From Bradyrhizobium diazoefficiens (GTDB lineage: Bacteria > Pseudomonadota > Alphaproteobacteria > Rhizobiales > Xanthobacteraceae), in NCBI RefSeq assembly GCF_016616425.1, contig NZ_CP067101.1, positions 6,386,001 to 6,450,000 on the forward strand: a DNA stretch of 64,000 nucleotides, written 5' to 3'. The notes beneath the pieces were generated by a model. That model saw only the letters and a program-made list of their open reading frames with translations. It made no database searches and had not been told where the DNA came from. The stretch's first letter is position 1; every line of letters starts with the position of its first letter. Shown here piece after piece: positions 31,315 to 64,000 of the stretch. The position numbers were made by a program, and so were the translations under genes.

Positions 31315-31330
31315 TGGCACGTATGTTGCT
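31315..31330 (+). promoter_or_regulatory. Sigma-54 (-24/-12) promoter of the mim operon
   Basis: TGGCACGTATGTTGCT matches TGGCAC-N5-TTGCT exactly. Transcription would start near 31342, about 85 nt before mimA. Sigma-54 promoters need an enhancer-binding activator; none is encoded in this window. Confidence 0.85.
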
Positions 31331-33091: not shown

Positions 33092-33169
33092 GACCCCCCA
33101 CCGGCGGCCGGGGAGGTGGTGTCGCCGCCTCCCCCGACATCCGCTGCGACTGCCTCACGGAGAATGATC

Positions 33170-34228: not shown

Positions 34229-34234
34229 GGCCGA

Positions 34235-46386: not shown

Positions 46387-47256
46387 ATGTCAATTGTAAG
46401 TAACGGGCTCGTATTTGCTGGCACGCGGGGGCTCGCAAGCCGCTGCCTTGCGTTTATCATCGAGACCTGCGGCAAAGACCTAGTCTCGGCAATTCTCGGT
46501 GCCCCCCGCAACGAGCAAACGTGGTGGAGCCACGAAACCAGCGAGGAGCTTTGGCAAGTCGCCGATCGCTACGGAATACCGTATCTCGAGTCAATGGACG
46601 ACGTTTCCCGTTACGGGGGCTTTCTCGTAAGCGTCTTATGGGGCAAGATCTTTCCGGCCCGCACGCTTGCGCGGTTTGATCGAGGGGGGATCAACCTGCA
46701 TCCGGCTCCACTGCCTGAATATCGTGGCAGTTTTGCCCGGACTCATGCGATCCTTAATGGGGCCGAGAGCTTCGGAGTGACCATCCACTACCTCTCCGAG
46801 CGCGCCGATACGGGAGACATCATCGGCGAGTTGCAGTTCCCCGTCCTGCCTTCAGAGACGGCTCTCTCCCTAGACACCAGGGCGCAACTTTATGGCTACG
46901 CGCTCTTCTGCGAGATATGGCTGCGCTTATTGGACGGATCCTTTGCCCCGCGATCCCAAGCGTCGCTGATAGCTGAGCATAAGCGCGAGCCTCGCTTCTA
47001 CACCAAGCGAATGATCGCCGAACTCTTGGATTCGGCAGATGTTCCGCGCGACGCCGAACAACTCGAGCGGCTGTATCGCGCATTGTACCTCCCGCCCCGT
47101 TTCATGCCTCCAAAGTGGCTCGTTCAGAGGGTTTTGACAAACGAGGTGCGAACGATCCTTCGGGGTAGCTGCTCGCGAGGCTCAGCTTTGAACGTGGCGG
47201 CGGACTTGCAGTCGTCTCCGGGATTGCCGGACATCCTGCTTCGGAGGAAACCTTAG
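46387..47256 (+). CDS. Formyltransferase-family protein
   Basis: A 289-aa protein with the N10-formyl-THF transferase fold: Asn/His/Asp catalytic triad in INLHPAPLPEYRG (the HPxxLPxYRG motif) and ADTGDIIGELQF. It lacks the C-terminal domain of methionyl-tRNA formyltransferase and has its own C-terminus (about residues 205-289), so it more likely formylates an amino group on a sugar, amino acid or peptide-like intermediate. GAGGTAAGAC precedes the ATG, 31 bp after the CDP-alcohol gene. Confidence 0.8.
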   Translation: MSIVSNGLVFAGTRGLASRCLAFIIETCGKDLVSAILGAPRNEQTWWSHETSEELWQVADRYGIPYLESMDDVSRYGGFLVSVLWGKIFPARTLARFDRGGINLHPAPLPEYRGSFARTHAILNGAESFGVTIHYLSERADTGDIIGELQFPVLPSETALSLDTRAQLYGYALFCEIWLRLLDGSFAPRSQASLIAEHKREPRFYTKRMIAELLDSADVPRDAEQLERLYRALYLPPRFMPPKWLVQRVLTNEVRTILRGSCSRGSALNVAADLQSSPGLPDILLRRKP

Positions 47257-47415
47257 GCGACTGTCGATCGGATTGCCATTAGGACATCGCGCGCCTCTTT
47301 CAGCACGACTTCGGCGCAGGGCAACGTTGTATTGCGACAAGTCGATCCATCCAACGTGCGAGCGAGACCTCAGGGGCGGGAATCAGGCAGCCAACTCGGG
47401 GTAGGAGGACCGCCT

Positions 47416-49317
47416 TTGTGTGCGATTTTCGGATTCGTCGGACGGGTCGCTGACGAGGCGGCGACCGAGCGTGACGTCGCTCGTTGCATTCAGACGCTTT
47501 CCCATCGAGGACCCGACGCGAGTGGCCTTTATGTGACTCCATCGTTTGCGTTTGCGCATCGAAGGCTTTCCATCATCGACCTAAACCATCGGTCGAATCA
47601 ACCCTTCCTCGATCGGGAATCGGACCTTGCAATCACGTACAATGGGGAGATCTACAACTACCGTGACGTGAGACGCGACTTGCTCCGACGCGGGTACCGA
47701 TTTCGCACCGAGTCCGACACGGAGGTCATATGCAAGGCATTCGCTTGTTGGGGCATTGATTGCCTCGAACGTCTACGCGGAATGTTCGCATTCGCAATCT
47801 ACGACAAGAAGAGCGGAACAGCATTCCTTGTCAGAGATCGACTTGGAATTAAACCGCTATACTACGCTCAAACGAACCGCGGCTTCGTCTTTGCTTCACA
47901 GGCGTCGGCCCTTCTACATTGGCCCGGGGTTCGCTCCAAGCTCGATCCGGTTGGGCTGTCCAGCTTTCTTTCTTTTCGTGCCGTCTTCGGCGAGAGGACT
48001 CTTTTTACAGACGTTCGAAAGCTGCAACCCGGCACCTGGCTAAAGATAACCGCCCAATCGCACGAGCATGCGCGGTGGTGGGACCCCGCTCGGTTAGACA
48101 ACAAGGACGAGTGCTCCTCACTGGACGCCTTGATCGGTAATGCCGTGGAAGAGCATTTGGCGGCCGACACTCCTGTCGCAGCGCTGCTTTCGGGCGGATT
48201 GGACTCCAGCGTCTTGGCTTTCGAGCTCTCAAGGCGCGCTGCACAAAAACCGACATGTTTCACCGGAATGGTAGCTGGTGAGACGTACGACGAAAGTCGC
48301 TATGCGATCGAAGTGGCGGAGTCTCTCAAGCTACCGCATGTCTTGGTACCGCTGCCCGCCGCGACGAGCCTTGATATGATCCAACGCCTCACTGCGTTAC
48401 GAGGTCACCCGATTGGCATGCACAATGAAGGGGCCATGTATTTACTGGCTAAGGCGGCCTCGCACTCGCACAAGGTTCTTCTCACCGGCGAGGGCGCTGA
48501 CGAGATATTCTCTGGGTATAGCCGAATTTTCAGACTACCATTTGACTTACAACGCCAAGCGTTCTTGTCCGCCCTGCCAGGCGTCATTGCCTGCCCAGCG
48601 CGCCGGCGTCTCGGCCTTCCGGCGGCCGAAACGAAGGAATTCGACTTCTTTCTCTCGCGATACACCTACTTTGCCCAGTCCGAGAAGCTGCAACTGGCGA
48701 CGTCCGCGTGGAGAGCGGATCTCGTGGATGATGCGGAGTTGCTCAACTGGATGAGCAGTGAGTATCATTCAGGCGGCGCCACTCCTGATGATCGCATAAG
48801 GCTGTTCTTCGTACGGCATCATCTACCGGCACTGCTCGAAATGGTCGACAACACGACAATGGCCGCCGGCGTCGAAGGACGCGTACCTTTCACAGATCAT
48901 CGAATCGTTGCGTCAGCTCTTGGCATGTCCGCCTCAGAGCACTTGCGTTGGAAGAACGCCTGTTCGCCAGTTCGAGCGGCCTTCGCACCTATTCAGAAAT
49001 TCAGCGAAACGCTCGACGTCTCGAAGTCTGCGCTACGCACTCTGTACAGAACTCGTCTCCCCGCCAGCGTGACCGCGAGGAAGAAGCTCGGGTTTCCGTT
49101 ACCCCTGGGTCATTGGGCGACCGACGAATGCTCGAGACCCTTTCGCGACTTGATCTTCGGAGGATCCGCCGCCATTGCTGACTATCTCGATATCGGCGCC
49201 CTCCGTCGATGGCATGAGGAGCACTCTCGCGCGGCGAACGATGCATTCGGACGACAACTCTGGTTGATTTGCAATCTTGAGATCTTCCTTCGTCAACTAC
49301 AGTCTTCGGGTTTGTAG
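47416..49317 (+). CDS. AsnB-type glutamine amidotransferase (asparagine synthase-like)
   Basis: 633 aa from a TTG at 47416, chosen because GTAGGAGG lies 8 nt upstream and the next codon is Cys, the N-terminal nucleophile that must be residue 2 in class II glutaminases (CAIFGFVG). Glutaminase domain residues 1-200 (SHRGPDASG, NGEIYNY), synthetase domain 210-600 with the pyrophosphate loop LLSGGLDSS and GEGADEIFSGY. It moves ammonia from Gln to an adenylated carboxylate. Members next to biosynthetic genes often amidate or cyclise secondary metabolites and not free aspartate. It is 159 bp after the formyltransferase gene. Confidence 0.85.
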   Translation: MCAIFGFVGRVADEAATERDVARCIQTLSHRGPDASGLYVTPSFAFAHRRLSIIDLNHRSNQPFLDRESDLAITYNGEIYNYRDVRRDLLRRGYRFRTESDTEVICKAFACWGIDCLERLRGMFAFAIYDKKSGTAFLVRDRLGIKPLYYAQTNRGFVFASQASALLHWPGVRSKLDPVGLSSFLSFRAVFGERTLFTDVRKLQPGTWLKITAQSHEHARWWDPARLDNKDECSSLDALIGNAVEEHLAADTPVAALLSGGLDSSVLAFELSRRAAQKPTCFTGMVAGETYDESRYAIEVAESLKLPHVLVPLPAATSLDMIQRLTALRGHPIGMHNEGAMYLLAKAASHSHKVLLTGEGADEIFSGYSRIFRLPFDLQRQAFLSALPGVIACPARRRLGLPAAETKEFDFFLSRYTYFAQSEKLQLATSAWRADLVDDAELLNWMSSEYHSGGATPDDRIRLFFVRHHLPALLEMVDNTTMAAGVEGRVPFTDHRIVASALGMSASEHLRWKNACSPVRAAFAPIQKFSETLDVSKSALRTLYRTRLPASVTARKKLGFPLPLGHWATDECSRPFRDLIFGGSAAIADYLDIGALRRWHEEHSRAANDAFGRQLWLICNLEIFLRQLQSSGL

Positions 49318-49629: not shown

Positions 49630-50331
49630 TCAACCCGGGGCCTCGTGGTCGAGATTCATCTTGGGAAGCGAGAGCTCAATGCCTGCCATTTGGGGAAGGC
49701 CGGCAAGGACGACCGCCTTTTCGCGCTTCGGTCCGAACTCATTCATGTCGGCAAAGGTTGAGTGGTCGACGCGGGTGGCGTCATCCCCCTGCGCCTGGTC
49801 CTTCAGAGGATCATTGAAGAACACGTAATCGGTATCAACCCCGGTGATCACCACCCAGTGAGTGACGGTCTTACCTTCGAATTCAATGCTGATCATCACG
49901 ATAGGATACCATCCCTCTGCCATCCAATTCGAGAGATCATCCAGGCTGTAATTTCCAACATATACTTGGACTCCACGCTCTTTGGCCTCGACGAGATCTC
50001 GCTCCTGGAGAATCCGAATCGCTTCCATCTCTTCCGTTCGCGAAGCGCGAGCCTCAAGAAACACCCCACCGTGGCTCACGACAACGACCGCCGCGAACCC
50101 GCGTCGTTTGAGCGCTAACGCGAGACCAACGGGCCCACAACCTCCATGGATAGTCGTTGCCTCCCGCCATAGCTCAAGCTCGGCTTTTGGGCTCGGCTGG
50201 TATCTCTCATCCAGCGCAGACATCACCATCATCAGCGAAGATGGTCCGCAGGTATAGTTCCTTCTTTGCCGATACAAGGGAATGTGTCTCACGATCTGAC
50301 CGCGTAAGCTCTCGGCGCCTAGGTAGGACAT
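49630..50331 (-). CDS. C39-like cysteine peptidase family protein
   Basis: A 233-aa protein without a signal peptide. Papain-like C39 pattern: IPLYRQRRNYTCGPSSLMMV (Cys28 nucleophile), then THWVVITGVDTDYVFFNDPL (catalytic His and Asp). Free-standing C39 proteins of this size cut at double-Gly sites or act as inactive substrate binders; the ABC and membrane domains of bacteriocin exporters are absent. It has GGAG before the ATG. It is the last intact gene downstream of the Opp-type importer, after a degenerate C39 copy and a PhnG-like remnant, so it may belong to that operon. Confidence 0.75.
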   Translation of the reverse strand: MSYLGAESLRGQIVRHIPLYRQRRNYTCGPSSLMMVMSALDERYQPSPKAELELWREATTIHGGCGPVGLALALKRRGFAAVVVVSHGGVFLEARASRTEEMEAIRILQERDLVEAKERGVQVYVGNYSLDDLSNWMAEGWYPIVMISIEFEGKTVTHWVVITGVDTDYVFFNDPLKDQAQGDDATRVDHSTFADMNEFGPKREKAVVLAGLPQMAGIELSLPKMNLDHEAPG

Positions 50332-50399: not shown

Positions 50400-50641
50400 G
50401 CCAGCGGTTTCCGGCGGCGGCGGTACCTGCAGAAGCTCGGCCCACGCACCTGGATATGGACCTCGGCGACGAGAACCTCACCGAGGTGAAACGTCGTGCC
50501 CCTGACAGTGTCTTCGTAAGGCAGCATCGCGAGCCCGGTGCGATTGGCAAGAACCGCCACGTCGCCGAGGTCATCGAGAACCTTTTCGGCGCAGGCCTTG
50601 TTCGCGGCTGGTCGGCCTGATGCAAGGGTTTTCAAGCGCAC
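50400..50641 (-). pseudogene. PhnG-like remnant
   Basis: An open stretch from 50641 reads AEKVLDDLGDVAVLANRTGL, AMLPYEDTVRGTTFHLGEVL, VAEVHIQVRG. The TGL..L....G..F.LGEVLV.EA pattern is, to my eye, that of C-P-lyase PhnG-type proteins. The sequence then degenerates (SFCRYRRRRKPL) and the N-terminal part is out of frame. A phosphonate link would fit the PhnF-like regulator at 58008, but the identification is by eye only. Confidence 0.4.
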
Positions 50642-50699
50642 GCCGGTGACCGAAACCGCCGGCGATGAGATCGTTTATGTTCTTCTCTGTCATTCTGCG

Positions 50700-50918
50700 G
50701 AGTTCTCTATCCTGGAGAGTGCGAACTTCAGTTCTTCGTGTCGAAGGGGATGGTAGTGCTGCCATCGACGCTGCTTCGGCCAGCACGACAGCTCGTTCTT
50801 CGGCAAGGCCAAAACGAGAACTCTTTGGATAGACATCGTGATCGGCGGTGGTGGCATCGCCTTTCGCACCGAGTTCGCTCAACGGATCGTTGAAGGTCAG
50901 CTCGCGCTCGACCGCCAA
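50700..50918 (-). pseudogene. Degenerate C-terminal half of a second C39-like gene
   Basis: The minus-strand text TFNDPLSELGAKGDATTADH, ...FGLAEERAVVLAEAASMAAL aligns with FFNDPLKDQAQGDDATRVDH, ...FGPKREKAVVLAGLPQMAGI of the intact protein at 49630. The Cys half is missing. It lies 30 bp after the importer permease gene, so the original operon probably carried two tandem C39-like genes. Confidence 0.65.
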
Positions 50919-50948: not shown

Positions 50949-51884
50949 TCATTGTTTGATTTGATCATTCGCCGACCAGTTTCGGTCACGTAAAAAATCG
51001 CTCAGAAGCATCAGCGCCAATGCTGTCGCCGCGATCACCAAGCCGGGAAAAACAGCGATCCACCACGCCGTCATCAGGTATCCACGGCCGAAGCCAACCA
51101 TGTTACCGAGGCTGGACATCGGGGGCTGGATGCCCAAACCCAGAAAGCTCAACGTGCCCTCCAGTAGAACAATTTGCGTGAGGCCTATGGTCATGCCCGC
51201 AACGATCGTCGGCAGGCATGCGGGCAGGACGTGCTTGCGATAGATCCTGATTCTCGAGGCGTTGTAGGTCCGCGCAGCCGTGACGTAGAGGTGATTTTTC
51301 GTGGTTAGAGCGGCGCCTCGCACCACGCGCGCGTGTCGCTCCCAACCGTAGAGGCCGAGAACAAAGACGAAGAGAAGAATCGAGTTGCCGAATACGGCGA
51401 TCAAAAGCAACGCAACGATCATAAAGGGCATGGCCGCTTGCATATCGACGAATGCGGTGATGCATTCGTCGACCGCACTGCCCAGCTCCGCCGCCAGAAA
51501 GCCTGATAGCGTTCCCAGCGACGTACTGATGATCGTGCCGGCCACCGCCACCGCGACGGTTATCTGGACCGAGTACATCAACCTGGACAGCACATCGCGG
51601 CCAAGATCATCGGTGCCCAGAGCGTGCGTCCAGGCGCCACCCAACAGGATCGGCGGCTGCAAGCGGGCGCTCAGGTCAATCGCTGCGGGATCGTAGGGGG
51701 CGATCTGCTGGGCCATGATGGCAACGAGAACGCAGCCCATGATCCAGGATATCGATAGCTTCACCGAAAGGTCCGCTTCGCGCCACCACAGCAGATTCGA
51801 TGAAACAGGCGCGGAAGGCAGAGTCGCTTTTACGGAAACAAGTCGCGCCGGAGGCAGAGCCGTTTTCACGGACACATCAGACAT
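50949..51884 (-). CDS. Opp/Dpp-type ABC transporter permease (second)
   Basis: A 311-aa permease of the DppC/OppC type: N-terminal cytoplasmic arm, membrane helix (SWIMGCVLVAIMAQQIAPYD), GTDDLGRDVLSRLMYSVQIT and the EAA-loop-like segment RTYNASRIRIYRKHVLPACLP, with about six helices. Together with the upstream permease it forms the membrane channel. GGGAGACC precedes the ATG, 12 bp after the first permease gene. Fifth gene of the operon in order of transcription. Confidence 0.9.
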   Translation of the reverse strand: MSDVSVKTALPPARLVSVKATLPSAPVSSNLLWWREADLSVKLSISWIMGCVLVAIMAQQIAPYDPAAIDLSARLQPPILLGGAWTHALGTDDLGRDVLSRLMYSVQITVAVAVAGTIISTSLGTLSGFLAAELGSAVDECITAFVDMQAAMPFMIVALLLIAVFGNSILLFVFVLGLYGWERHARVVRGAALTTKNHLYVTAARTYNASRIRIYRKHVLPACLPTIVAGMTIGLTQIVLLEGTLSFLGLGIQPPMSSLGNMVGFGRGYLMTAWWIAVFPGLVIAATALALMLLSDFLRDRNWSANDQIKQ

Positions 51885-51896
51885 TTCGGTCTCCCA

Positions 51897-52844
51897 TCAA
51901 TGATCGGATCTGCGCGCGCGCGGATCGACGACGACGTAGAGGACATCCACGACAAGGTTGGTCAAGACCATTACCGCACCGGCCAGGATGACGATCGCCT
52001 GCACGACCGGAATGTCCCGATTTCCGATGGAGCTGATGAACAGATTCCCGATCCCGGGCCAGGAAAACACGGTCTCGACAACGATTGATCCCGTGACCAG
52101 GCCACCCACCATCAGTCCGAGGACTGTCAGGATGGGAATGGCTGCGTTAGGCAAGGCGTGATGGACCAGAATACGCCAACTCGGTATATCGCGGGCTCTT
52201 GCCGCCACCACGAACGGACTGTCGAGAGCCTCAGCCAGCACCGTGCGCGTATATCGAGCCAGCACTGCAGAATTTGCGACTGCGACCGTGATGGCGGGCA
52301 AGATCAAGCTGGACCAGCTTTGTGCACCGTTGGTGGGCAGCAGTCTCAGTTCGATCGAGAAGATGAGCATCAGAACGAGGGCAAGAAAAAATGCGGGGAC
52401 ACAAAGGCCAACTGAGCTGACGATCGTCACGAGACGGTCGACCAACTTGCGGCGGAACACAGCGGCAATGATCCCCGCTCCAAGGCCCATCACGACAGCG
52501 AGCGCCAACGATGTCGCCATCAGGGTCAAGGTGGCTCCCAGATTGTTGAAAACCACCGTCAGCGCATCGCGGTGATAGATGTACGAGCGCCCGAAGCTGC
52601 CGTGGAGGATGTTCTCGGCATAGGCTAAGTACTGCTGCAATACCGGTTTATCCAGGCCAAGTTCACGCGCGTAGGCGATCCTCATGTCCGGCGTCGCATC
52701 CGGTCCGAGAAAGATCGTCACCGGGTCGCCGACGCTGCGCAGCAACACAAATACGCACGTCACCATCAACGCGATCGATAGAACCGCACGTAGCAGTTTG
52801 ATCCAGGTAAACCTAAAGAGCGTGCTGATCACTGCCCCCCCCAT
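51897..52844 (-). CDS. Opp/Dpp-type ABC transporter permease (first)
   Basis: A 315-aa permease of the DppB/OppB type: N-terminal helix (LRAVLSIALMVTCVFVLLRS), GDPVTIFLGPDATPDMR, the LGLDKPVLQQYLAY signature and EAA-loop RARDIPSWRILVHHALPNAA. About six membrane helices. Its 5' end overlaps the upstream ATPase gene by 32 bp, indicating translational coupling. Confidence 0.9.
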   Translation of the reverse strand: MGGAVISTLFRFTWIKLLRAVLSIALMVTCVFVLLRSVGDPVTIFLGPDATPDMRIAYARELGLDKPVLQQYLAYAENILHGSFGRSYIYHRDALTVVFNNLGATLTLMATSLALAVVMGLGAGIIAAVFRRKLVDRLVTIVSSVGLCVPAFFLALVLMLIFSIELRLLPTNGAQSWSSLILPAITVAVANSAVLARYTRTVLAEALDSPFVVAARARDIPSWRILVHHALPNAAIPILTVLGLMVGGLVTGSIVVETVFSWPGIGNLFISSIGNRDIPVVQAIVILAGAVMVLTNLVVDVLYVVVDPRARRSDH

Positions 52845-53727
52845 CCTCGGTCAGCTCTCTCAAGATTGACCGGTCCGCTCCTGCGGCGGACGGCTGAGAC
52901 TGTTTAGGGACGGAGGCTATGAGGGCCTGCGTGTATTCCGCCTGAGGATGAAGGAGAACGTTGTCTCGCGTCCCGGCTTCGACGACGCGGCCGCGATGCA
53001 GCACAACAATCTCGGAGCATAGGTAAGAGACAGCCCTGATATCGTGGCTGATAAACATAAGGCTCAGACCCTGCCGATCACGCAGTTCACACAGGAGATT
53101 GAGGATTTGCGCCTGTACGGTCATGTCGAGGGCGGACACAGGTTCATCGCAAATCAATAGATCGGGCTCCAGAAGAAGCGCGCGGGCGATGGTCACACGC
53201 TGCGCTTGGCCGCCACTGATCTGGCGCGGGCGCTTTTCGGCAATCTCCAGGGAAAGACCGACATCTTGAAGTGCGGTCGCGATTCGCTCCAGCCGTTCTG
53301 ACCGCGGCAGCTGGAAGTTGGCAAGAAGAGGCTCCATCAGCTGGTCGCCAACCTTCATCCGCGGATCCAGTGCATCCATAGGGTTCTGGAAGATCGGTTG
53401 CGCTCGTTTCCGGAACGACCGTAGACTTTGCGGGGTGACGGGCTTTCCCTCGAATAGAATCGAGCCCTCTCGCGGCTTTGCCAATCCCAGCACCAGCTTT
53501 GCAACCGTACTCTTGCCACTCCCCGATTGGCCGATCAGTCCGAGGGCTTGCCCTCGCTTGAGGGAAAAATTGATATCGCTCAGGGTTTGATGCTCGCGCA
53601 CCCGGCCGCGTCGGTAGTCAAACCCGACTCCTTCAAGCTGGAGAAGCGGTATGGCGTTCCCGCTGTGCAGCTCGCTTCTGTTAAGATGCGGCATGATTGA
53701 GCCCAAGGTTATGGCAGGCTGCTGCAT
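52813..53727 (-). CDS. Opp/Dpp-type ABC transporter ATPase (OppF-like)
   Basis: A 304-aa ATPase: Walker A GQSGSGKST, signature ISGGQAQRV, Walker B LLICDEPVSALD, H-loop FISHDIRA, and a short C-terminal oligopeptide-transporter segment. Start at 53727 or at Met12 (53694), both inside the end of the preceding ATPase gene. It pairs with the OppD-like ATPase to power import. Confidence 0.9.
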   Translation of the reverse strand: MQQPAITLGSIMPHLNRSELHSGNAIPLLQLEGVGFDYRRGRVREHQTLSDINFSLKRGQALGLIGQSGSGKSTVAKLVLGLAKPREGSILFEGKPVTPQSLRSFRKRAQPIFQNPMDALDPRMKVGDQLMEPLLANFQLPRSERLERIATALQDVGLSLEIAEKRPRQISGGQAQRVTIARALLLEPDLLICDEPVSALDMTVQAQILNLLCELRDRQGLSLMFISHDIRAVSYLCSEIVVLHRGRVVEAGTRDNVLLHPQAEYTQALIASVPKQSQPSAAGADRSILRELTEDGGGSDQHAL

Positions 53728-54742
53728 GACTTAATCCGACTGGGAACTCCGGTTTGCGCGCACATGCCTCTACCGCGTGCGCGCAGCGGGGCGCAAAATG
53801 ACAGCCGGCGCCTCTTATGGCTGGATCCGGGACACCACCGGCCAAGGCAACGAGATCGATCTTGGTGAGCGAAATTTCCGGGACAGCGGAGAAAAGGCTT
53901 CTCGTATAGGGGTGCAGCGGCTGTTGCGCGATCGCCTCGGTGGATCCCATTTCGATGAGCTGGCCTGCGTAGATCACTCCGATGCGATCCGAACGTTCCA
54001 TGGCCAGATCGAGATCATGTGTTACGAAGAGAACGGCCATGTTCCAGTCTGACCGCAGCTGCTCGATCAAATCCATGATCTGACGTTGGGTGGTGACGTC
54101 GAGCGCGGACGTCGGCTCATCGGCAATCAGAAGCCGAGGGCGACGCGCAAGGGCGAGTGCAATCATCACCCGCTGGTTCATGCCGCCGGAGAGTTCGTGT
54201 GGGTATTTCTTGATCGTCGAACGCGGATCTTCAATTCCGACGGCTTCAAGGAGGGAAATCGCGCGTTCGCCTGCTTCGCGTTTCGAGCCTCGCGAAACGA
54301 TGCGAACGGTTTCAGTTAGCTGAAAGCCGATCGTTCTGACCGGATTGAGGTATCGGCTGGGTTGCTGGAAGATCATCGCGCGTGACCTGCGATCCACGGC
54401 CGCCAATGGCCCGCCGTCGAAATATATGTCGCCGCGAGCACTGAGATTGGTGGGCAGGATCCCCATTAACGTCGAACACAGCAGGCTTTTGCCGCTACCG
54501 CTCTCGCCCACCAACGCGAAAAATTCGCCCTCCCGAATGTTCAGCGAGATGGATTCCAGCAACCGAATCTCCTGGTGGGATCCCGCCGTCCAGACATCGA
54601 GGCCGGATACTTCGAGAACCGGCCGTGTCCTGAGCGGGACGCTTGGCTGCCCTGTGGCGGGATCAGTGCCGGGCACCCTCGCCATATCGGCGAGGGTGAG
54701 TTCGGCACCGGGCGCCGCGGTGAATGACACACGCCTCTCCAT
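53681..54742 (-). CDS. Opp/Dpp-type ABC transporter ATPase (OppD-like)
   Basis: About 353 aa from the ATG at 54742 (MERRVSFTAAPG), which overlaps the stop of the binding-protein gene (TAATG). Walker A GESGSGKSLL, signature LSGGMNQRV, Walker B LLIADEPTSALD, H-loop FVTHDLDLAM, and the C-terminal oligo_HPY motif with Cys residues (GCHFAPRCAHAVEACARKPE) typical of OppD. Second gene of the operon. Confidence 0.92.
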   Translation of the reverse strand: MERRVSFTAAPGAELTLADMARVPGTDPATGQPSVPLRTRPVLEVSGLDVWTAGSHQEIRLLESISLNIREGEFFALVGESGSGKSLLCSTLMGILPTNLSARGDIYFDGGPLAAVDRRSRAMIFQQPSRYLNPVRTIGFQLTETVRIVSRGSKREAGERAISLLEAVGIEDPRSTIKKYPHELSGGMNQRVMIALALARRPRLLIADEPTSALDVTTQRQIMDLIEQLRSDWNMAVLFVTHDLDLAMERSDRIGVIYAGQLIEMGSTEAIAQQPLHPYTRSLFSAVPEISLTKIDLVALAGGVPDPAIRGAGCHFAPRCAHAVEACARKPEFPVGLSHAAACHNLGLNHAAS

Positions 54743-56307
54743 TACGAGGCGATTGTGCCCGGGCGAAAGTCCAGAAGGCCGGTTGGCGTCGGCGACCATT
54801 TGAAGTCGGATCTCTTTCCAAAGAACTCGGCAAGCGAGTGCAGGACGGTGCCCGGCGGATCAACCTCGTCGAAAATGTCCAACATCTCCTGATAGGCGCG
54901 ACGGCGCTCGGCCGTGTCGAGCGAACCTACGAGAGTTTTCTCGAGTTCGTTGAACCGATCGTTCTTCCAGTACCCGCTCTTCTGGAACACGCTGCTCGCG
55001 CCCCAACGCGACGAGAAGGAGGCCGTTGGATCGGGGAAATAGGTGCCGTCTGAGGAATTGTTGATCCAGCGAGGCTTTTCGTCCATCACCTGGGCCCAGT
55101 TTTCCTTCCGCTGAATCTCCACATTGAGGCCGATGGCGTTCCACATCGCGGCCATGACTTGCGTCTCTGCGAGCTCTGCAGTGTAGTAGTCGCCGACTGT
55201 CTTGAAGAGGATCTTCTCACCCTTGTACCCGGCTTCCTTAATCAGTTGCTGCGCGCGCGCCGGATCATACGCGGGGATCGGTCTGTCCGGATTATAGAGG
55301 GCGCCGTAGACCGGCTGCTGATGGGACCGGGGGATTGAAATCCGCCCATGCCATATGCTCTTGACCAATCCTTGCCTGTCGATCGAGAGATTGAGAGCAC
55401 GTCTCAGCTTCGGGTCGCGAAGCACGGGATTAGTCAGTGAATCGTACTGCATCGTGCGGAACGAAACTGTATCGCCACCGACGACGTCCAGGCGCTTGTC
55501 GGCCGTGATGACATCAAACTGATCTGGCGCGATCGTCGTGATAAGATCGAAGTCTCCGGCTCGAAGGCCGGCGACGCGCGCGGCTGGCTCTCGCACCATC
55601 CGAAACTCGATTGCCGAAAGCGGCGGCCGACCGCCCCAATACTCCGGGTGAGCCTCTAGCTTGATGTAGTTGTTTTCCGATGACTCAACGAGCCGGTAGG
55701 GGCCGGCGCCAACCGGAGACTTCGCCCATTGGTCGAAGCTCGCCGCCTTCAGATAGGCAGACTTGCAGATGACCCCGCCGCCATAGGACGTGAACCTCAT
55801 CCAGAAAACCGGATCCGGCTTCTTCGTTTTGAATTCCACGTTGTAGCGATCGAGGACCTTGACTTTTGCCAAGGTTGGGAACGTTACCTGCCCAATGCCA
55901 TAGCCAGGAGCGCCCGTTTGAAGCATGCGCTCAGGACCGAAGGTGAACGCCACATCATCAGCCGTCAGTTCGTCACCATTGTGGAACTTGACGCGCTGTC
56001 GCAAGCGCACCTTGAACACGACATTGTCTGTCGTCTCGATCGCTTCGGCGAGCATCGGCTTCAGCTTGGCACCGTTCTGATAGTCTATGCTGAACAGCTT
56101 GTCGTGCACGCTTTCCAGAACGCGAAAGCTCGATAACGCGCTTGCGCGAGGATGCAAGGGATCCAGCTCCGTGCGCAGGTCCTGCATCGCGATCCGCAAC
56201 TTTGCCGTGGCCCCCCCCTGGGCCAGGGCAGGCATGGCACAAGAGAGCAAGCTTGCTCCTCCGATCATCTTCAAGATGTTGCGACGTGATTGCGCCACCA
56301 TGCTCAA
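54742..56307 (-). CDS. Family 5 (peptide-type) substrate-binding protein with Tat signal
   Basis: A 521-aa SBP_bac_5 protein; start 56307 or 56301. The N-terminus MVAQSRRNILKMIGGASLLS ... AMPALAQ is a twin-arginine signal, so it is probably exported folded. The body has the family pattern (FKVRLRQRVKFHNGDELTAD, LRRALNLSIDRQGLV). Family members bind peptides, nickel, opines, glutathione and other solutes; specificity cannot be read here. First gene of the importer operon, with a 34-bp promoter/operator (56381-56415) upstream that recurs before capA. Confidence 0.9.
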   Translation of the reverse strand: MSMVAQSRRNILKMIGGASLLSCAMPALAQGGATAKLRIAMQDLRTELDPLHPRASALSSFRVLESVHDKLFSIDYQNGAKLKPMLAEAIETTDNVVFKVRLRQRVKFHNGDELTADDVAFTFGPERMLQTGAPGYGIGQVTFPTLAKVKVLDRYNVEFKTKKPDPVFWMRFTSYGGGVICKSAYLKAASFDQWAKSPVGAGPYRLVESSENNYIKLEAHPEYWGGRPPLSAIEFRMVREPAARVAGLRAGDFDLITTIAPDQFDVITADKRLDVVGGDTVSFRTMQYDSLTNPVLRDPKLRRALNLSIDRQGLVKSIWHGRISIPRSHQQPVYGALYNPDRPIPAYDPARAQQLIKEAGYKGEKILFKTVGDYYTAELAETQVMAAMWNAIGLNVEIQRKENWAQVMDEKPRWINNSSDGTYFPDPTASFSSRWGASSVFQKSGYWKNDRFNELEKTLVGSLDTAERRRAYQEMLDIFDEVDPPGTVLHSLAEFFGKRSDFKWSPTPTGLLDFRPGTIAS

Positions 56308-56380: not shown

Positions 56381-56415
56381 GTGACAGAAATAACACGGAT
56401 GCCTAGATACCTAGG
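56381..56415. promoter_or_regulatory. Promoter/operator A, predicted GntR-regulator site
   Basis: It contains CCTAGATACCTAGG (56402-56415), an inverted repeat CCTAG-N4-CTAGG, next to a minus-strand -10-like TGTTAT. 27 of 34 bases match site B before capA, and all seven differences are transitions. It lies between the divergent importer operon and the phosphodiesterase-regulator operon, so it may control both. Confidence 0.7.
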
Positions 56416-56495
56416 GACCTAACTTTCCACTCGACCTGATTTTTTTGAAAGTCTATGGAGAGAGCGTACAGGGCGGCAACAAGAGGCATGCGCGA

Positions 56496-57986
56496 ATGAA
56501 ATTCGTAGTCGTGGTTTTCGACGGGTTGCGTCCTGACCAACTTGCCGAGACAGTAACGCCCAACCTTTGCGCATTTGCGAAACTGGGTCTCGTTCTCAGT
56601 GATCACACGGCCTCGTTTCCAAGCGAAACGCGCGTCTCATCGGCGGCGATCGCGACAGGCAGTCATGCCGGCCGTCATGGAATCGTGGCAAACAGATTTT
56701 TCGCCAATGGAACCGCGATCGACGGTGCGTCTCTTCCGGCGCTCCTGTCGCTTGGAAGCAGGGACGGTGGTGTCATGACCTCCGTCGCGATTGGAGAGGT
56801 TTTGGCCAAGCATGGAAAGACGATGCTCGCCATTGGATCTCAGTCGCAAGGCTCATGGGGCCTGTCGAACTGGGGCAATTGGCAAGCCGGCGGGCCTGCC
56901 TATTGGGTTCACGATGCTGAGCGATTTGGAAGCAACCCGGTCATCCGCCGGATTGCATCCCGCTTCCCGGAGCTTCCGGCTGGAGAACAGCCAGCATTGC
57001 AGACGATCGCACGTGTTGTCGACGGCTTTCTGTCTTACGTGACCAGCGAGGTCGTTCCCGAACTCACACTCCTTTGGCTTTCCGAGCCGGACATCAGCTA
57101 TCACATGTTCGGACTGGTGCATCCCAGCGCAAGACAGGTTCTCGCCAAGGTCGATCAGGAATTTGGACGTATCCTCGATTGGTGGGAGGGCGCCAGGACA
57201 AGCGATCGGATTCAACTCATCGCAGCTTCAGACCATGGCCATGCGATCATCGGAAAGAATGTCTGCGTTGCCGATTATCTTGGCAAGGCAGGGTTCAAGG
57301 TCGCCGACACGTTGGAGACAGGCGCCGACGCCATTGTCAAGCCGCAACGCGCGGTCAATCTATGGGTCCGGGATCAGGATCTGGGACTGCTCGGCGAGAT
57401 CCATGATTGCCTTTCCGCAGCGCCCTGGTACGGGGTCGGGTTTTCGCGAACGATGGCGGGCGAAATGCCCCGCATCGCAGGCACCCTTCCCCATTCAGCG
57501 GTCATGTTCGAACATGCGAGAAGCCCGGACTTGTCATTTGTCCTTGGCGACTGCGCCGCGACAGACCCCGGCTGCAATCCTGAGACCGTGTTTTATGACG
57601 GCCCCTATCCGCTCGGTGTGGGAATGCACGGCGGCCTGACCTCCTATGAACTCTCAGCCCTCGGCATCTTTGCTGGGGATTGGTTCCGCCGGGGAACGTT
57701 GACCACTCCTACGGGCATTGTCGATCTCACACCAACCATACTAACTGGTCTTGGCCTGCCCATTCCAGTCACGGTTCAGGGGCGGCTGATCGAGGAGGCC
57801 CTTCTCAGCTGCGATGGGAGACCGTCTTACCAGGTCGAAGATGTCAGCGTGTCAGTCAGCAATTCGCTTCGGTCGGCTAAAATTCGCAGAGACAGCTATG
57901 GTGGGCGCCTCTACCTGAAAGGAACTGACTATCAATGGTTTAGAAATTTCGGCAGCGGCGCCCCATCCACCGTTCATACGCATTGA
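56496..57986 (+). CDS. Alkaline-phosphatase-superfamily phosphodiesterase/hydrolase
   Basis: 496 aa from the ATG at 56496 (AGAGG upstream; a TTG at 56445 is also open). Type I phosphodiesterase/nucleotide pyrophosphatase fold (Pfam PF01663-like): metal Asp9 in VVVFDGLRPDQL, nucleophile region ASFPSETRVSSAAIATG with a Ser (about 40) where most relatives have Thr, AGRHGI, metal sites EPDISYHMFG, ASDHGHAI and GMHGGLTSYE. No signal peptide, so it acts in the cytoplasm on an imported substrate. Relatives cleave phosphodiesters or phosphonoacetate. Followed after 21 bp by the GntR regulator. Confidence 0.8.
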   Translation: MKFVVVVFDGLRPDQLAETVTPNLCAFAKLGLVLSDHTASFPSETRVSSAAIATGSHAGRHGIVANRFFANGTAIDGASLPALLSLGSRDGGVMTSVAIGEVLAKHGKTMLAIGSQSQGSWGLSNWGNWQAGGPAYWVHDAERFGSNPVIRRIASRFPELPAGEQPALQTIARVVDGFLSYVTSEVVPELTLLWLSEPDISYHMFGLVHPSARQVLAKVDQEFGRILDWWEGARTSDRIQLIAASDHGHAIIGKNVCVADYLGKAGFKVADTLETGADAIVKPQRAVNLWVRDQDLGLLGEIHDCLSAAPWYGVGFSRTMAGEMPRIAGTLPHSAVMFEHARSPDLSFVLGDCAATDPGCNPETVFYDGPYPLGVGMHGGLTSYELSALGIFAGDWFRRGTLTTPTGIVDLTPTILTGLGLPIPVTVQGRLIEEALLSCDGRPSYQVEDVSVSVSNSLRSAKIRRDSYGGRLYLKGTDYQWFRNFGSGAPSTVHTH

Positions 57987-58007
57987 ATTGAGAAAAAGAG
58001 ACAATCG

Positions 58008-58742
58008 ATGTTTCAGGGAAAACGATGGGAGTTCGTCAGAACGAAAATCGAGTCGAACATCGCCTCGAACAAGTTTGCTCCTGGCGAAAAGCTGCCGAAC
58101 GATGTCGAGCTGGCGCGACTCTACGGTGTTAATAGACACACTGTTCGATATGCCATTCGAGCGCTTGAGCAAAAGGGCATCCTTCGCGTGGAGCAAGGAC
58201 GAGGGACTTTTGTCGTGGAGAACACGACCCCTTACCTTCTCTCGGCCGGCACCCGCCTCACCGACAACCTTGTCGCGCACGGTCGCCTGGCCCGCCGTTC
58301 CATTCTTTCATCGGAGACAATCGCTGCGAATGAGCGTCTGGCAAAACATCTCCATCTTAAGGTTGGCGATGACGTTCTCCTGATGACAACTTTGAGCTTT
58401 CAGGACGAAATCCCGATCGTGATTGCGCACAGCTATTTCCCGGCGGAACGTGTACCGGGACTGTTGGACGAATTCTCCGGAGTGAATTCGATCTCTAAGG
58501 CCTTAAAGCGCGTCGGCGTCGCGGCCTATTCCCAGCAATGGGTCCGGATCAACGCGCGGATGCCGACAGAAGCCGAGGCGCGCCTTCTTGGGATGTCCAT
58601 GGCTCAACCCGTATTCATTAAAGAGAACTTGGACTGCGCGAACGGCACACCAATCAAATTTGGGGAAAACGTACTCTGCGCGTCCAGGATAAACTTTTTC
58701 ATCGATTTCAAGAAAATGCAGAAGGGAACGGCGCGTTCATAG
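58008..58742 (+). CDS. GntR/HutC-family regulator resembling PhnF
   Basis: A 244-aa protein: N-terminal winged helix (VRTKIESNIASNKFAPGEKL, LARLYGVNRHTVRYAIRALE, GILRVEQGRGTFV) and a C-terminal UTRA ligand-binding domain (about residues 90-240). It is close in layout to PhnF, the regulator of phosphonate genes, and other HutC-type repressors. It is in an operon with the phosphodiesterase. Its predicted operator is the palindrome CTAGGTACCTAG found before capA and, in near-identical form, before the importer operon. Confidence 0.85.
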   Translation: MFQGKRWEFVRTKIESNIASNKFAPGEKLPNDVELARLYGVNRHTVRYAIRALEQKGILRVEQGRGTFVVENTTPYLLSAGTRLTDNLVAHGRLARRSILSSETIAANERLAKHLHLKVGDDVLLMTTLSFQDEIPIVIAHSYFPAERVPGLLDEFSGVNSISKALKRVGVAAYSQQWVRINARMPTEAEARLLGMSMAQPVFIKENLDCANGTPIKFGENVLCASRINFFIDFKKMQKGTARS

Positions 58743-59123
58743 CTCGTATGAAAATCGGAAGCCTCCAGCAACTCGCTTCTGGCGCCAGACATGGACAGCG
58801 AAGGGCAAGCGACTCTCGCTGCGATTTGAGCGAACTGACGGGTTTGCCGGCCTAGCAGACCGTTGGGCCACAGCTTGAGCCGAGCTGCGTCAACGGCTTG
58901 GCAATGCGCTTATGTCCTCTCCGATCTCGACGGCACCGATGAGGCGTTGATAAGACGCGGGCGGCACAAAATGCACTCCAACGTGCCGCACGTGGGTGGA
59001 TCGGCGGTGACGAGCGGGCGCAGCCGATTGAGGTAAGGCTGACGGTCAGAGCCAAGGTCGGCCGTCAGCCGGTCGGCGAATTCGACCGGCTTCAGGCCTT
59101 CGCGGCGTTCCTGAATGCAGGGC
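58743..59123. other. Convergent region between the regulator and capA
   Basis: About 380 bp. Minus-strand text FADRLTADLGSDRQPYLNRL (about 59075-59010) looks protein-like but has no complete frame. Nothing I can name; possibly a gene remnant. Confidence 0.3.
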
Positions 59124-60461
59124 CTATCCCGTCGCAGCCATCCGGCCGAAGCACCGCCCGTTGCGGCGATCGATCTCTATCATTGTCCCAAAGGGACGCG
59201 ACAGGCTGTCCAGCCGCGAGAGAATGCGAGCGCCGTCCTCTGGATCCGCCAGCATCGGCGTTCCCCGGCGGCTTCTGGGAAGCCCATATCCCATTGTAAT
59301 CGGATGGAGCTCCAACGTGGCAAGTTCGCCGGCAGCGAAGCTGAACTGTGCCACGACAGATTCCCAATAGTGCGGCTTGATATTGTAGCTTGGCATAACG
59401 TCATAAAGATCGGCAGGCGTCGATGACAGCGGCATGCCCTGCTGCTCGTAAAGTTCGATCGGAAACGAGGCGGTCGCCAGGTTGTGGATGAAGTTGCCCA
59501 ACGAATAGAAAATCGGGCGATTCCGATAGAGTTCGATCCCGCGCAAAATGTGAGGTCCATGCCCGATAATGGCATGGGCCCCCGCATCGATGAGCCGATA
59601 CGCAAGCGGCTGCATGAATCCGGCAGGAACGTCCGTGTTCCAGCTCCCCTGCAACCCCTCGTGACCATGAAGAGCCACGACGACAATGTCGGCCATCCGT
59701 TTAGCCTCGGCGATTGCGCTGACAAGCGCTTGTACGTCGCGTTCCAAAACGTCCGTTTGTATCCGCGGACTATCATCGGCTACGAAGTGCGCGCTCTCCA
59801 CCGCTATGCCGCCCGGCGGCGGGGGGCCATAGACATTGCGATCAGGATACGCGAAATGGGTTCCGGGAGCCCTTGTCCCGGCCGGTTCGACGTTCACACC
59901 GGTCTCGGCCAGGATGTTGCGCAAAGTTTCAAACTGTTCTGTCTTGACGTAATGGGTCTTCTGCAAGCGCAATGGCGCAATACCGGGTCGACCGATATCG
60001 CCGATCCCGGCATCGGCGGCGACCGACAACCTGGCGTTGCTCGATGCTGCTGCGATTAACGCTACTCGCCCGCCAGCTGCGTCGAAGTAGCAAGGTTGCC
60101 GAGCCTCTCGCAGGGTTCGCCCCGCGCCCGCGTATCGCATGTTTCTTCGCTCTAATGCCTCCAAGGTGGCAATAAGACCATGGGTACCGTAGTCCGTGGC
60201 ATGATTGTTTGCGATGCCAAAGAGGTTTACGCCCAGGAACTCGAACTCTGAGAGCAGATTGGGATCTGCCCCCAGCGGGGTGCCGTGAAACGTCGTCGAC
60301 GGTTGACGGCCGGGTCCTGGAAACGACATCTCGACATTGGTGATAGTCACGTCTGCGTTTCTCAGGAGCGCGACGAGGTCTCGGAATGCAGTGTCCGGGG
60401 TTGCGGAAATCGCTCGGGTCAACATTGAGTCCCCGGTTGCAAGGAGACTTATATCGGACAT
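59124..60461 (-). CDS. CapA/PGA-synthesis-like metallophosphoesterase-fold protein
   Basis: A 445-aa PGA_cap domain protein: ISLLATGDSMLTR, VTITNVEMSF, NLFGIANNHATDYG, VVVALHGHEG, HAIIGHGPHILRGIELYRNR and IFYSLGNFI, the characteristic metal-binding order of CapA proteins. No signal peptide, unlike cell-surface CapA of Bacillus, so it probably acts in the cytoplasm. The family has a calcineurin-like fold and is implicated in poly-gamma-glutamate and other gamma-glutamyl polymers. It is a single gene, but its promoter carries the same operator as the importer operon, so it likely processes the imported compound. Confidence 0.85.
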   Translation of the reverse strand: MSDISLLATGDSMLTRAISATPDTAFRDLVALLRNADVTITNVEMSFPGPGRQPSTTFHGTPLGADPNLLSEFEFLGVNLFGIANNHATDYGTHGLIATLEALERRNMRYAGAGRTLREARQPCYFDAAGGRVALIAAASSNARLSVAADAGIGDIGRPGIAPLRLQKTHYVKTEQFETLRNILAETGVNVEPAGTRAPGTHFAYPDRNVYGPPPPGGIAVESAHFVADDSPRIQTDVLERDVQALVSAIAEAKRMADIVVVALHGHEGLQGSWNTDVPAGFMQPLAYRLIDAGAHAIIGHGPHILRGIELYRNRPIFYSLGNFIHNLATASFPIELYEQQGMPLSSTPADLYDVMPSYNIKPHYWESVVAQFSFAAGELATLELHPITMGYGLPRSRRGTPMLADPEDGARILSRLDSLSRPFGTMIEIDRRNGRCFGRMAATG

Positions 60462-60535
60462 CGGAGGAATTCCTTTCTTTGTTTTGCCAGACCGGGCGGC
60501 CTGCGCTCCGTCCGAGCCAGCCCTACCTCTCCAAT

Positions 60536-60569
60536 GTAACGGGAATAATACAGATACCTAGGTACCTAG
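60536..60569 (-). promoter_or_regulatory. Promoter/operator B upstream of capA
   Basis: CTAGGTACCTAG (60558-60569) is a perfect 12-bp palindrome; a minus-strand -10-like TATTAT lies next to it. The start of transcription would be near 60538, about 75 nt before the capA ATG, the same spacing as site A to the binding-protein gene. Confidence 0.72.
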
Positions 60570-62341: not shown

Positions 62342-63745
62342 TCATTTGAGATAACCCATGATTATCAGGACGACCGTGACTGTAACTGCGCCGCCGATCC
62401 GGGTCGCGATCTGTGCGAACGGCATCAGTTGCATACGATTGGCGGCGGTGAGGATCGCGACGTCCCCAGTGCCGCCCTGGCCACTGTGGCAAGCATTCAC
62501 GATCGCCGTCTCGATCGGGTACATGTTCATGAAGCGACCGACCGCGAAGCCAGTCGCCATGATCGTGACAACGGTCGACACGATGGTGACGATGTTGGCA
62601 AAGTGAAACGCCGCGACCAGCTTGGCCCATGGCGTCAGCGCGACACCGATCGCGAACAGCAGTGGATAGGTCATGCTGGTCCGCGCGAATTCGTAGACGA
62701 CCAATCCACCCTGCTGAAGCTCGGGCGACACGGCCCGGCTCAGCTTGGCGAGCACCGCCAGGAACAGCATTGCCACCGGCGCCGGCACCCCAAACAAATG
62801 GTGGCAGAGCACGCCGAGCAGATAGAGCGCGATCCCGGTCAAGCCTGCGGCCGCAATCGCGGTCACGCCGACAGGGCCGACGCCCTGCTCCTTACCGCCC
62901 TCCCCGTGCGCGTCCTGGATGTCGAGGTCGCGATCGCTGTGCGGCTGCAGGCGACCCTCGCCTGTGAGCTGCGGGTATTTCTTGCCAATGAAGTTGAGCG
63001 CGCCGGAGAGAAGGATGGCCGTCAGGCTTCCCAGCATCACCGGCGGCAGCACTTGCGCAAACACCTCACCCTGCGGCACGCCGGTCGATGCGGCATATCC
63101 GATCGACAGCGGGATTGCGCCCTCGCCCACGCCGCCGGCCATGATCGGCACGACCACGTAGAAAAACGTGTGGGACGCACCAAGCCCGAGCGCGGTGCCG
63201 ACGGCAGTACCGACTATCGCGGCCACGACAGAGCCGAGCGCGAGCGGCACGAATATTTTCAGGAAGCCTCGGATCAGGACCTCGCGGTCCATCGCAAAGA
63301 TGCTGCCGACGATGATGGAGGCGATGAAAAGGTAGAGAAAGTTGGTCGACCTGGTGAAGTCGATGATCGATTTTTCGACCTGCAGCGGAATCAGGTGATA
63401 GAAAGCCAGGGCGGACGGAATGAAGGTGGCGAAGATTGCGCCGGCACCCATGCTGCGTAGCACCGGCAGCCGTTTGCCGAGCTCGGCGCAGGTGAACCCG
63501 CCGAGTATCAGCACCACGATCATGGTCGGCCCGTCCGACTTGATCTCGCCGGTATAGACAAGGGCGGCTACGAGAACAATGAGCACGAGATAAATCGGGA
63601 GCGGAATGATTCCCACCCGGGTATCCGTCAGGCGCCACCATCCTTCAGGCCAGAAGCGGCGGACGATATCCACCGTGTTTGTAGCTACCGGCTGCGCGGT
63701 GATCTCGTGATGCGCGACAATCCCGCTTGCGTCCTGCGACGACAT
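62342..63745 (-). CDS. 2-hydroxycarboxylate transporter (CitS/MaeN-type)
   Basis: 467 aa from the ATG at 63745 (MSSQDASGIVAHHEITAQPV), preceded by GGGAGGAGG; an upstream in-frame start at 63805 lacks one. About eleven membrane helices. It contains the two family reentrant-loop motifs with GGxG: PIMAGGVGEGAIPLSIGYA and ACHSGQGGTGDVAIL. It imports citrate, malate or similar 2-hydroxycarboxylates with Na+ or H+. No two-component regulator or citrate lyase genes are adjacent. The 255 bp from 63746 to the window end hold only its promoter region. Confidence 0.9.
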   Translation of the reverse strand: MSSQDASGIVAHHEITAQPVATNTVDIVRRFWPEGWWRLTDTRVGIIPLPIYLVLIVLVAALVYTGEIKSDGPTMIVVLILGGFTCAELGKRLPVLRSMGAGAIFATFIPSALAFYHLIPLQVEKSIIDFTRSTNFLYLFIASIIVGSIFAMDREVLIRGFLKIFVPLALGSVVAAIVGTAVGTALGLGASHTFFYVVVPIMAGGVGEGAIPLSIGYAASTGVPQGEVFAQVLPPVMLGSLTAILLSGALNFIGKKYPQLTGEGRLQPHSDRDLDIQDAHGEGGKEQGVGPVGVTAIAAAGLTGIALYLLGVLCHHLFGVPAPVAMLFLAVLAKLSRAVSPELQQGGLVVYEFARTSMTYPLLFAIGVALTPWAKLVAAFHFANIVTIVSTVVTIMATGFAVGRFMNMYPIETAIVNACHSGQGGTGDVAILTAANRMQLMPFAQIATRIGGAVTVTVVLIIMGYLK

Positions 63746-64000
63746 GTCTAGCCTCCTCCCGCTTGTGCTCTTCGCCGGCGGTCGATGAGCGCCCGTGCCG
63801 CGCAAACGGTGGATGGCGAACGTCTTTGTTCCGGTCGTTTTGTTCGGCGGAATGATAAATCGTCCGACCTGTCAGCAACCTGTCACGCCAGGCGTCTGGT
63901 TTGGCTTTCGAGTGGTCACGGCCTCATTGCGGGGGAAAAAGCGTTCGTGCGAGGCTTGGTGAGAGGAACCTCTGCCTCGCAGGGCGTCAGGCGATTTGTG

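Follow-up and report, generated by a model that had tools for sequence, protein, structure and literature searches.

Genes and paired sites of the importer cluster

The stretch analysed here (the window), 64,000 nucleotides of Bradyrhizobium diazoefficiens DNA at positions 6386001-6450000 of a 7.14-Mb genome, contains a predicted uptake cluster with two related 34-bp sites, A and B, which we consider likely to control jointly a regulon for scavenging phosphonate esters. On the minus strand, Pfam and NCBIfam matches revealed importer ATPases resembling OppD (53681-54799) and OppF (52813-53727) and permeases resembling OppB (51897-52844) and OppC (50949-51884). Next to them on the same strand is the gene of a substrate-binding protein (54742-56301) that matches SBP_bac_5 in Pfam, is AccA-like in a comparison with relatives of solved structure, and has a twin-arginine-type leader as judged by eye. 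A DUF3335 C39-like protein (Pfam; 49630-50331, minus strand) is encoded within the block. On the plus strand, a type I phosphodiesterase without a visible signal peptide (PF01663, 99.3 bits against a cut-off of 23; 56496-57986) is followed by a PhnF-like GntR/UTRA regulator (58008-58742), which passed TIGR02325 with 186.8 bits (cut-off 156.8) and matched PF00392 and PF07702. A CapA-like (PGA_cap) protein identified by Pfam lies under site B (59124-60461, minus strand).

Site A covers 56381-56414 and site B 60536-60569, with one extra left-hand base also alignable. They are identical at 27 of 34 positions, all seven differences being transitions, and a pattern with purine or pyrimidine codes at those seven positions only had no mismatches to either site. 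Alignment and pattern thus confirm the two near-identical sites reported by the first-pass annotation; its span for site A (56381-56415) is correctly located but contains 35 nt, whereas the matching stretch is 34. The distance of about 75 nt to minus-strand start codons given there also holds, as site A is positioned 79 nt upstream of the ATG at 56301 (73 nt upstream of the TTG at 56307) and site B 74 nt upstream of the ATG at 60461. The core described as palindromic, CTAGGTACCTAG, is a perfect palindrome at site B but has one mismatch at site A. At up to three mismatches, the 34-bp pattern was absent from all 100 versions of the window made by dinucleotide shuffling; chance was gauged by shuffles only, because conservation was counted as the stronger test. 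In the whole genome, the 13-mer CCTAGRTACCTAG matched with at most one mismatch at sites A and B only, and the reversed control of this pattern gave seven matches. Site B is therefore no dispersed repeat, an alternative that the annotation had put forward for testing and that we rejected.

Each site consists of an operator of overlapping CTAGGTAC palindromes and an adjoining Pho-box-like sequence. The operator of site A, CCTAGATACCTAGGGACCTAA, is an array of palindromes overlapping in 8-bp steps (56402-56422), and that of site B, CCTAGGTACCTAG, precedes the CapA gene (60557-60569); no strand is assigned to either. Close relatives of the phosphodiesterase were found by protein search in Bradyrhizobium, Rhizobium, Sinorhizobium, and Microvirga. 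A scan of genome contigs gave 71 loci, of which 12 (L031-L042) were taken as orthologs and 59 of lower identity or partial length were set aside; the Sinorhizobium meliloti AK83 plasmid (L102) completed an ortholog set of 13. Twelve of the 13 loci have the 12-bp core CTAGRTACCTAG, allowing one mismatch, upstream of the phosphodiesterase gene, even where protein identity was 43-45%; in the exception, L037, the core is present with a 1-bp deletion. The closest relative, Bradyrhizobium sp. Oc8 (L031), also keeps site B before CapA. At the same threshold, the core occurred nowhere else in the 13 loci besides the site-A positions and site B of Oc8. Conservation of the core with the cluster, its non-dispersed occurrence, and the PhnF-like regulator gene, which does lie between the sites as first described, support the earlier proposal that importer, phosphodiesterase/regulator, and CapA genes form one regulon.

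By eye, sites A and B do not fit the HutC-subfamily consensus, in which GT and AC stand 4 nt apart (GT-N4-AC); the part of the source consulted lists exceptions as well (PMC4494728). The predicted GntR-type operator takes the form of a palindromic array with a PhnF-like regulator gene nearby, not of a GT-N4-AC element.

The left-hand portion of each 34-bp site is similar to a Pho box, the consensus of which is CTGTCAT-N4-CTGTCAT. On the minus strand, site A matches this at 10 of 14 positions (56381-56398) and site B, weakly, at 9 of 14 (60536-60553). The match rises to 11-12 of 14 in 10 of 12 site-A regions outside the window, and in those 10 it is found at a fixed offset of -20/-22 nt from the operator start; L037 was excluded from scoring because of its 1-bp operator deletion. 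Random 102-nt stretches scored at least 12 in 0.23%, at least 10 in 3.8%, and at least 9 in 20% of cases. Since the window scores are low, the Pho-box reading depends on the relatives. It seems unlikely that the sites are ordinary sigma-70 promoters plus a GntR operator, with an incidental Pho-box likeness and no phosphate control. TATTAT/TGTTAT beside the operator would be usable as a -10 hexamer (by eye), and window scores of only 10 and 9 are in line with this idea; yet no good -35 hexamer was seen by eye at the expected spacing, and the fixed-offset scores of 11-12 in the relatives speak against it. Of the promoter/operator originally described, the operator reading stands, while the Pho-box-like sequence, though weak in the window, fits better than an ordinary promoter.

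Binding protein, phosphodiesterase, and C-P lyase genes

The nearest solved relative of the binding protein is AccA, the agrocinopine-binding protein (265 bits; the next protein scored 107), to which it is related over the full length (E 1e-77; 159 of 474 aligned residues identical). According to the sections consulted of the AccA study, pyranose-2-phosphate has its phosphate contacted by Asn54, Ser419, Tyr375, and Tyr376 and its sugar anchored by Asn54, Asn284, Ser419, and Glu510 (PMC4526662); Glu504 was left out of our comparison, its numbering being mismatched, with Trp at that position. All 15 binding proteins compared retain Ser419 and Tyr376, and 14 of them retain Tyr375. None of the 12 proteins in the window's family has Asn54, Asn284, or Glu510, so that the full AccA contact set is lacking there; the counterpart of Asn54 is Ser in one alignment and Leu in the other. 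Three binding proteins from sister plasmids, described below, keep Asn54 and Asn284. These residues suggest that the window protein may bind a phospho- or phosphono-ester with a different partner group.

In the phosphodiesterase, Asp-9, Thr-45, Asp-199, His-203, Asp-246, His-247, and His-378 are invariant in 16 of 16 sequences and presumably serve as metal ligands and nucleophile. The enzyme, without a visible signal peptide, is probably a cytoplasmic phosphonate-ester hydrolase. The imported compound might instead be a foreign or general phosphodiester (agrocinopine-like, or a glycerophosphodiester) and not a self-made phosphonate, which we judge improbable. PF01663 enzymes cleave phosphate diesters too, AccA is the nearest relative of the binding protein, and the sister-system proteins retain two AccA anchors; against this stand the loss of Asn54, Asn284, and Glu510 from the window's family (kept in 0 of 12) and the carbon-phosphorus (C-P) lyase genes found within the unit in relatives.

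In Oc8, the binding protein and importer genes are followed, in this order, by phnGHIJKLM, a second gntR (85%), and C39. PhnG and PhnH of this strain pass their models and the phnJ gene passes Pfam PhnJ; no NCBIfam model matched the phnJ product. The window aligns with Oc8 on both flanks, with a jump at about 50439-50442 that skips some 6.5 kb, namely the remainder of phnG, phnHIJKLM, and the second gntR. A remnant at 50442-50835 (minus strand) corresponds in this alignment to the sequence that follows oppC in Oc8 together with the initial portion of phnG. By this comparison, the C-P lyase genes of the cluster have been lost from the window strain; another phnJ is located at 1.22 Mb in its genome. 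In Microvirga VF16, phnIJKLM adjoin the C39 gene. A PhnF-type regulator gene adjoins C-P lyase genes in Oc8, S. fredii, S. meliloti M270, and R. gallicum, and lies nearby in Microvirga.

Sister units were found on three Sinorhizobium/Rhizobium plasmids (L156, L157, L159), where regulator homologues share 42-44% identity and the order is opp importer, phosphodiesterase, phnF, and phnGHIJKML. A related, non-identical operator, TACCTAGAYRTCT, occurs exactly before both opp and phnG on all three (6/6), the opp copy in L156 falling a little past the start annotated for the first gene, and nowhere else in the three plasmid stretches; the pattern was composed after inspecting these sites. Seven C-P lyase regions outside the unit had neither TACCTAGAYRTCT nor the 10-bp core TAGRTACCTA (up to one mismatch, both strands). 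The Phyllobacterium locus L158, with a regulator homologue at 33%, had no such unit and no operator, and S. meliloti RRI128 (L104) had no such unit and a single stray one-mismatch match to the 10-bp core. From the plasmid records with a regulator homologue, four of the 50 listed were examined, plus AK83 and Microvirga.

The compound taken up is most likely a phosphonate ester and not a peptide, because the PhnF model accepts the regulator, AccA is the nearest solved relative of the binding protein, phnGHIJKLM follow the importer in the nearest relative, and the strains carry phosphonate synthesis genes of the aepX type (phosphoenolpyruvate mutase). The first-pass annotation had suggested uptake and breakdown of a compound that was perhaps a phospho- or gamma-glutamyl peptide; we keep probable uptake and breakdown, and for the peptide we substitute a phosphonate ester. 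A gamma-glutamyl substrate, for which only the CapA-like and C39-like families speak, was rejected as the leading idea on the PhnF, C-P lyase, and AccA evidence. Import of a gamma-glutamyl or any other peptide is very improbable: the Opp-type importer would suit it, as would the CapA-like and C39-like families, and the best NCBIfam model for CapA is the MslH peptide epimerase (NF038314), but that match reached 293.7 bits against a cut-off of 700, and the PhnF regulator, the likeness of the binding protein to AccA, the C-P lyase genes within the unit, and linkage to aepX all point elsewhere. MslH epimerase was accordingly rejected as the identity of the CapA-like protein. Beyond CapA, an open frame at 62342-63805 looks like a candidate 2-hydroxycarboxylate-type transporter.

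Linked phosphonate synthesis genes

Just past the C39 gene, the plus strand carries genes of the linked synthesis set, for a CDP-alcohol phosphatidyltransferase-family enzyme (45645-46355) and a formyltransferase (46387-47256), both by family match, and an AsnB-like amidotransferase (47404-49317, exact start unsure; Pfam/NCBIfam). On the AK83 plasmid, the genes ahead of the unit are aepX and those for aminotransferase, cytidylyltransferase, CDP-alcohol transferase, formyltransferase, and AsnB, and in eight Bradyrhizobium loci the regulator gene is followed by cytidylyltransferase and aepX genes. The window genome has its aepX, aminotransferase, and cytidylyltransferase genes about 380 kb from the unit (6058-6063 kb), in the same part as nodA (6003 kb) and nifH (6097 kb). 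Synthesis and uptake genes lie within about 20 kb of each other in L033-L037, L039, L040, L042, and L102, and on the three sister plasmids.

A second shared element, GGTCAACTACCAAC..GTNATTGATC (45501-45528, plus strand), had four genomic matches at up to three mismatches, in the window and at 6058020, 6062392, and 6162050; the control had none. Three copies are upstream of the aepX, cytidylyltransferase, and CDP-alcohol transferase genes, and in Oc8 as well as the eight Bradyrhizobium loci the element also stands before aepX. It was absent at up to five mismatches from AK83 and from L142-L145, which cover the region upstream of the CDP-alcohol transferase gene in four of these relatives, from the sister plasmids, and at up to four mismatches from the aepX stretches L160-L166. 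The fourth genomic copy precedes another aminotransferase gene (L111, 6152000-6171999), near which Pfam identified two thiamine-diphosphate enzyme halves, perhaps of the sulfopyruvate/phosphonopyruvate decarboxylase type. By eye, the element does not fit a nod-box, tts-box, or FixK-type motif. A sigma-54 promoter before the synthesis genes was rejected, as no match with up to one mismatch is directed at the CDP-alcohol transferase gene of the window or at the aepX, aminotransferase, or cytidylyltransferase genes of this genome; the match nearest to aepX is 613 nt upstream on the opposite strand. Elsewhere in the window, an exact sigma-54 consensus, TGGCACGTATGTTGC (31315-31329), has downstream of it a putative monooxygenase operon (31427-35371) and then a chaperonin-like gene (35858-37495).

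Across 265 Bradyrhizobium genomes, the phosphodiesterase was present in 13, aepX in 110, and nodA in 139. All 13 phosphodiesterase genomes carry aepX, compared with 97 of 252 others (Fisher 7e-6, kinship uncorrected), and nodA occurs in 103 of 110 aepX genomes compared with 36 of 155 others (Fisher 3.5e-33, kinship uncorrected). The same strains can probably make the phosphonate ester. The 13/13 co-occurrence also argues against a foreign or general phosphodiester as the substrate, an alternative that gains from Microvirga VF16, which has the uptake genes without an orthologous aepX. One Bradyrhizobium genome has aepX and a remote phosphodiesterase (34%) on a single contig, separated by about 11 kb (G171:C112:46947 and 59262), perhaps another version of the linkage.

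Plasmid records with aepX numbered 76, of which 56 matched at 60% identity or more. Four of the 60 aepX matches listed were examined (five others were viewed for other reasons), and none of the four had a PhnF/phosphodiesterase unit within 12-14 kb; the linkage is therefore not universal, and synthesis is wider than the scavenging unit. In L163, a different ATP-binding cassette (ABC) importer adjoins the synthesis genes, and L166 is without other core synthesis genes. Agrobacterium tumefaciens pAt2 (L163) and Mesorhizobium pMLa (L164) combine aepX, aminotransferase, cytidylyltransferase, and CDP-alcohol transferase genes with differing tailoring genes. Their gene content suggests a family of related phosphonates on plant-associated plasmids.

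The linked genes might make a phosphonate antibiotic or a cell-surface phosphonate, with the uptake unit recycling or detoxifying it. Many known phosphonates are antibiotics, and a core of aepX, aminotransferase, cytidylyltransferase, and CDP-alcohol transferase genes with varied tailoring genes would be in keeping with such a product. We find this rather doubtful, as importer and C-P lyase genes under one operator indicate nutrient use and aepX is linked to nodA.

Proposed regulon and comparison with known systems

From the sites, their conservation, the gene families, linkage, and co-occurrence, we infer how the regulator would bind, the direction of control, the substrate, the enzyme activities, and a symbiotic role. 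In the scavenging regulon that we favour, the PhnF-like protein would bind the palindrome arrays and repress the importer operon, CapA, and, across site A, its own phosphodiesterase-gntR operon, until the imported compound or its cleavage product relieved repression. PhoB at the neighbouring Pho-box-like sequence would likely add activation under phosphate starvation. The AccA-like protein and the Opp-type importer would bring in a phosphonate ester, the cytoplasmic phosphodiesterase would cleave it, and CapA and the C39-like protein would trim the remainder. The freed phosphonate would pass to C-P lyase, whose genes belong to the cluster in close relatives and here lie at another chromosomal position. 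Such an ester could be the product of the aepX, aminotransferase, cytidylyltransferase, and CDP-alcohol transferase genes that the same genomes carry.

Several observations weigh against this proposal. The operator deviates from the HutC-subfamily consensus and, in the importer direction, stands upstream of the Pho box, which is unusual for a simple repressor. The window's Pho-box scores are at chance levels of 3.8% (A) and 20% (B), L038 and L041 have no Pho box (scores 8-9), and the sister-plasmid sites score 8-12, reaching at least 10 in 3 of 6 only. The window strain is without the cluster's own C-P lyase genes, and its binding protein family has lost Asn54, a phosphate contact of AccA. CapA was seen in the unit only in the window and Oc8 (P0006/P0122 may be a third case), and in L037 and L040 the importer does not adjoin the phosphodiesterase and regulator genes. 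Two metagenome-assembled genomes share with Microvirga VF16 an uptake unit without orthologous aepX. Finally, the excerpt consulted of a bacteroid study lists a phnG as down (PMC3973600).

Other literature, as far as the excerpts consulted go, reports pepM in a free-living Bradyrhizobium (PMC10708946) and induction of phosphonate transporter or phn genes in nodules (PMC3732241, PMC8125078); in the parts of the open-access literature covered, we found no connection drawn between phosphonate synthesis in rhizobia and an uptake unit of this kind. A tentative extension is that the compound is a phosphonate 'rhizopine', an ester made in symbiosis by aepX-type genes of the symbiosis element and used only by kin with the matching unit (AccA-like importer, phosphodiesterase, and PhnF/PhoB-controlled C-P lyase). 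With equal reserve, it could act within and near nodules as a signal or a source of phosphorus reserved to such kin.

The analysis gives the importer cluster a concrete compound class, a regulator, and a testable operator, and it connects phosphonate synthesis both with nodulation genes across the genus and with a scavenging unit borne by rhizobial plasmids. Should the product pass between kin, the opine idea, which covers sugars, amino acids, and inositol derivatives, would come to include C-P bonded compounds, and the reason why symbiosis elements carry phosphorus genes would become testable.

The system resembles the known regulation of C-P lyase and phosphonate uptake by PhnF (GntR/HutC) in that TIGR02325 is passed and the regulator adjoins C-P lyase genes in relatives. 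It differs in its operator, an 8-bp-step CTAGGTAC array instead of GT-N4-AC, and in its targets, which would be an Opp-type importer, a phosphodiesterase, and CapA instead of PhnCDE. With the Agrobacterium agrocinopine acc system (AccA-AccBCDE-AccF-AccR) it shares a related binding protein, an ABC importer, a phosphodiesterase, and a repressor. AccF belongs to a family other than PF01663, the family of the enzyme here, where moreover the sugar-anchoring residues are lost, the regulator is PhnF-like, C-P lyase is linked, and the candidate synthesis genes are bacterial.

In the Sinorhizobium rhizopine system (mos/moc), synthesis and catabolism genes of an inosamine compound lie together on the symbiotic element. 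The idea of carrying both gene sets together is common to the two systems; the genes differ, the chemistry here would be that of a phosphonate, and a nodule role here is hypothetical. Opines and rhizopines have both sets on the same element, as was found in the loci with both sets within about 20 kb; the window genome splits them over about 380 kb, in the part that also carries nodA and nifH. Known aepX clusters with nucleotidyl activation are matched by aepX, which passes TIGR02320 (326.3 bits; cut-off 319.55), and by the nucleotidyltransferase and CDP-alcohol transferase genes alongside; unlike those clusters, the genes described here are linked to a unit for import and degradation and show a statistical association with nodulation genes.

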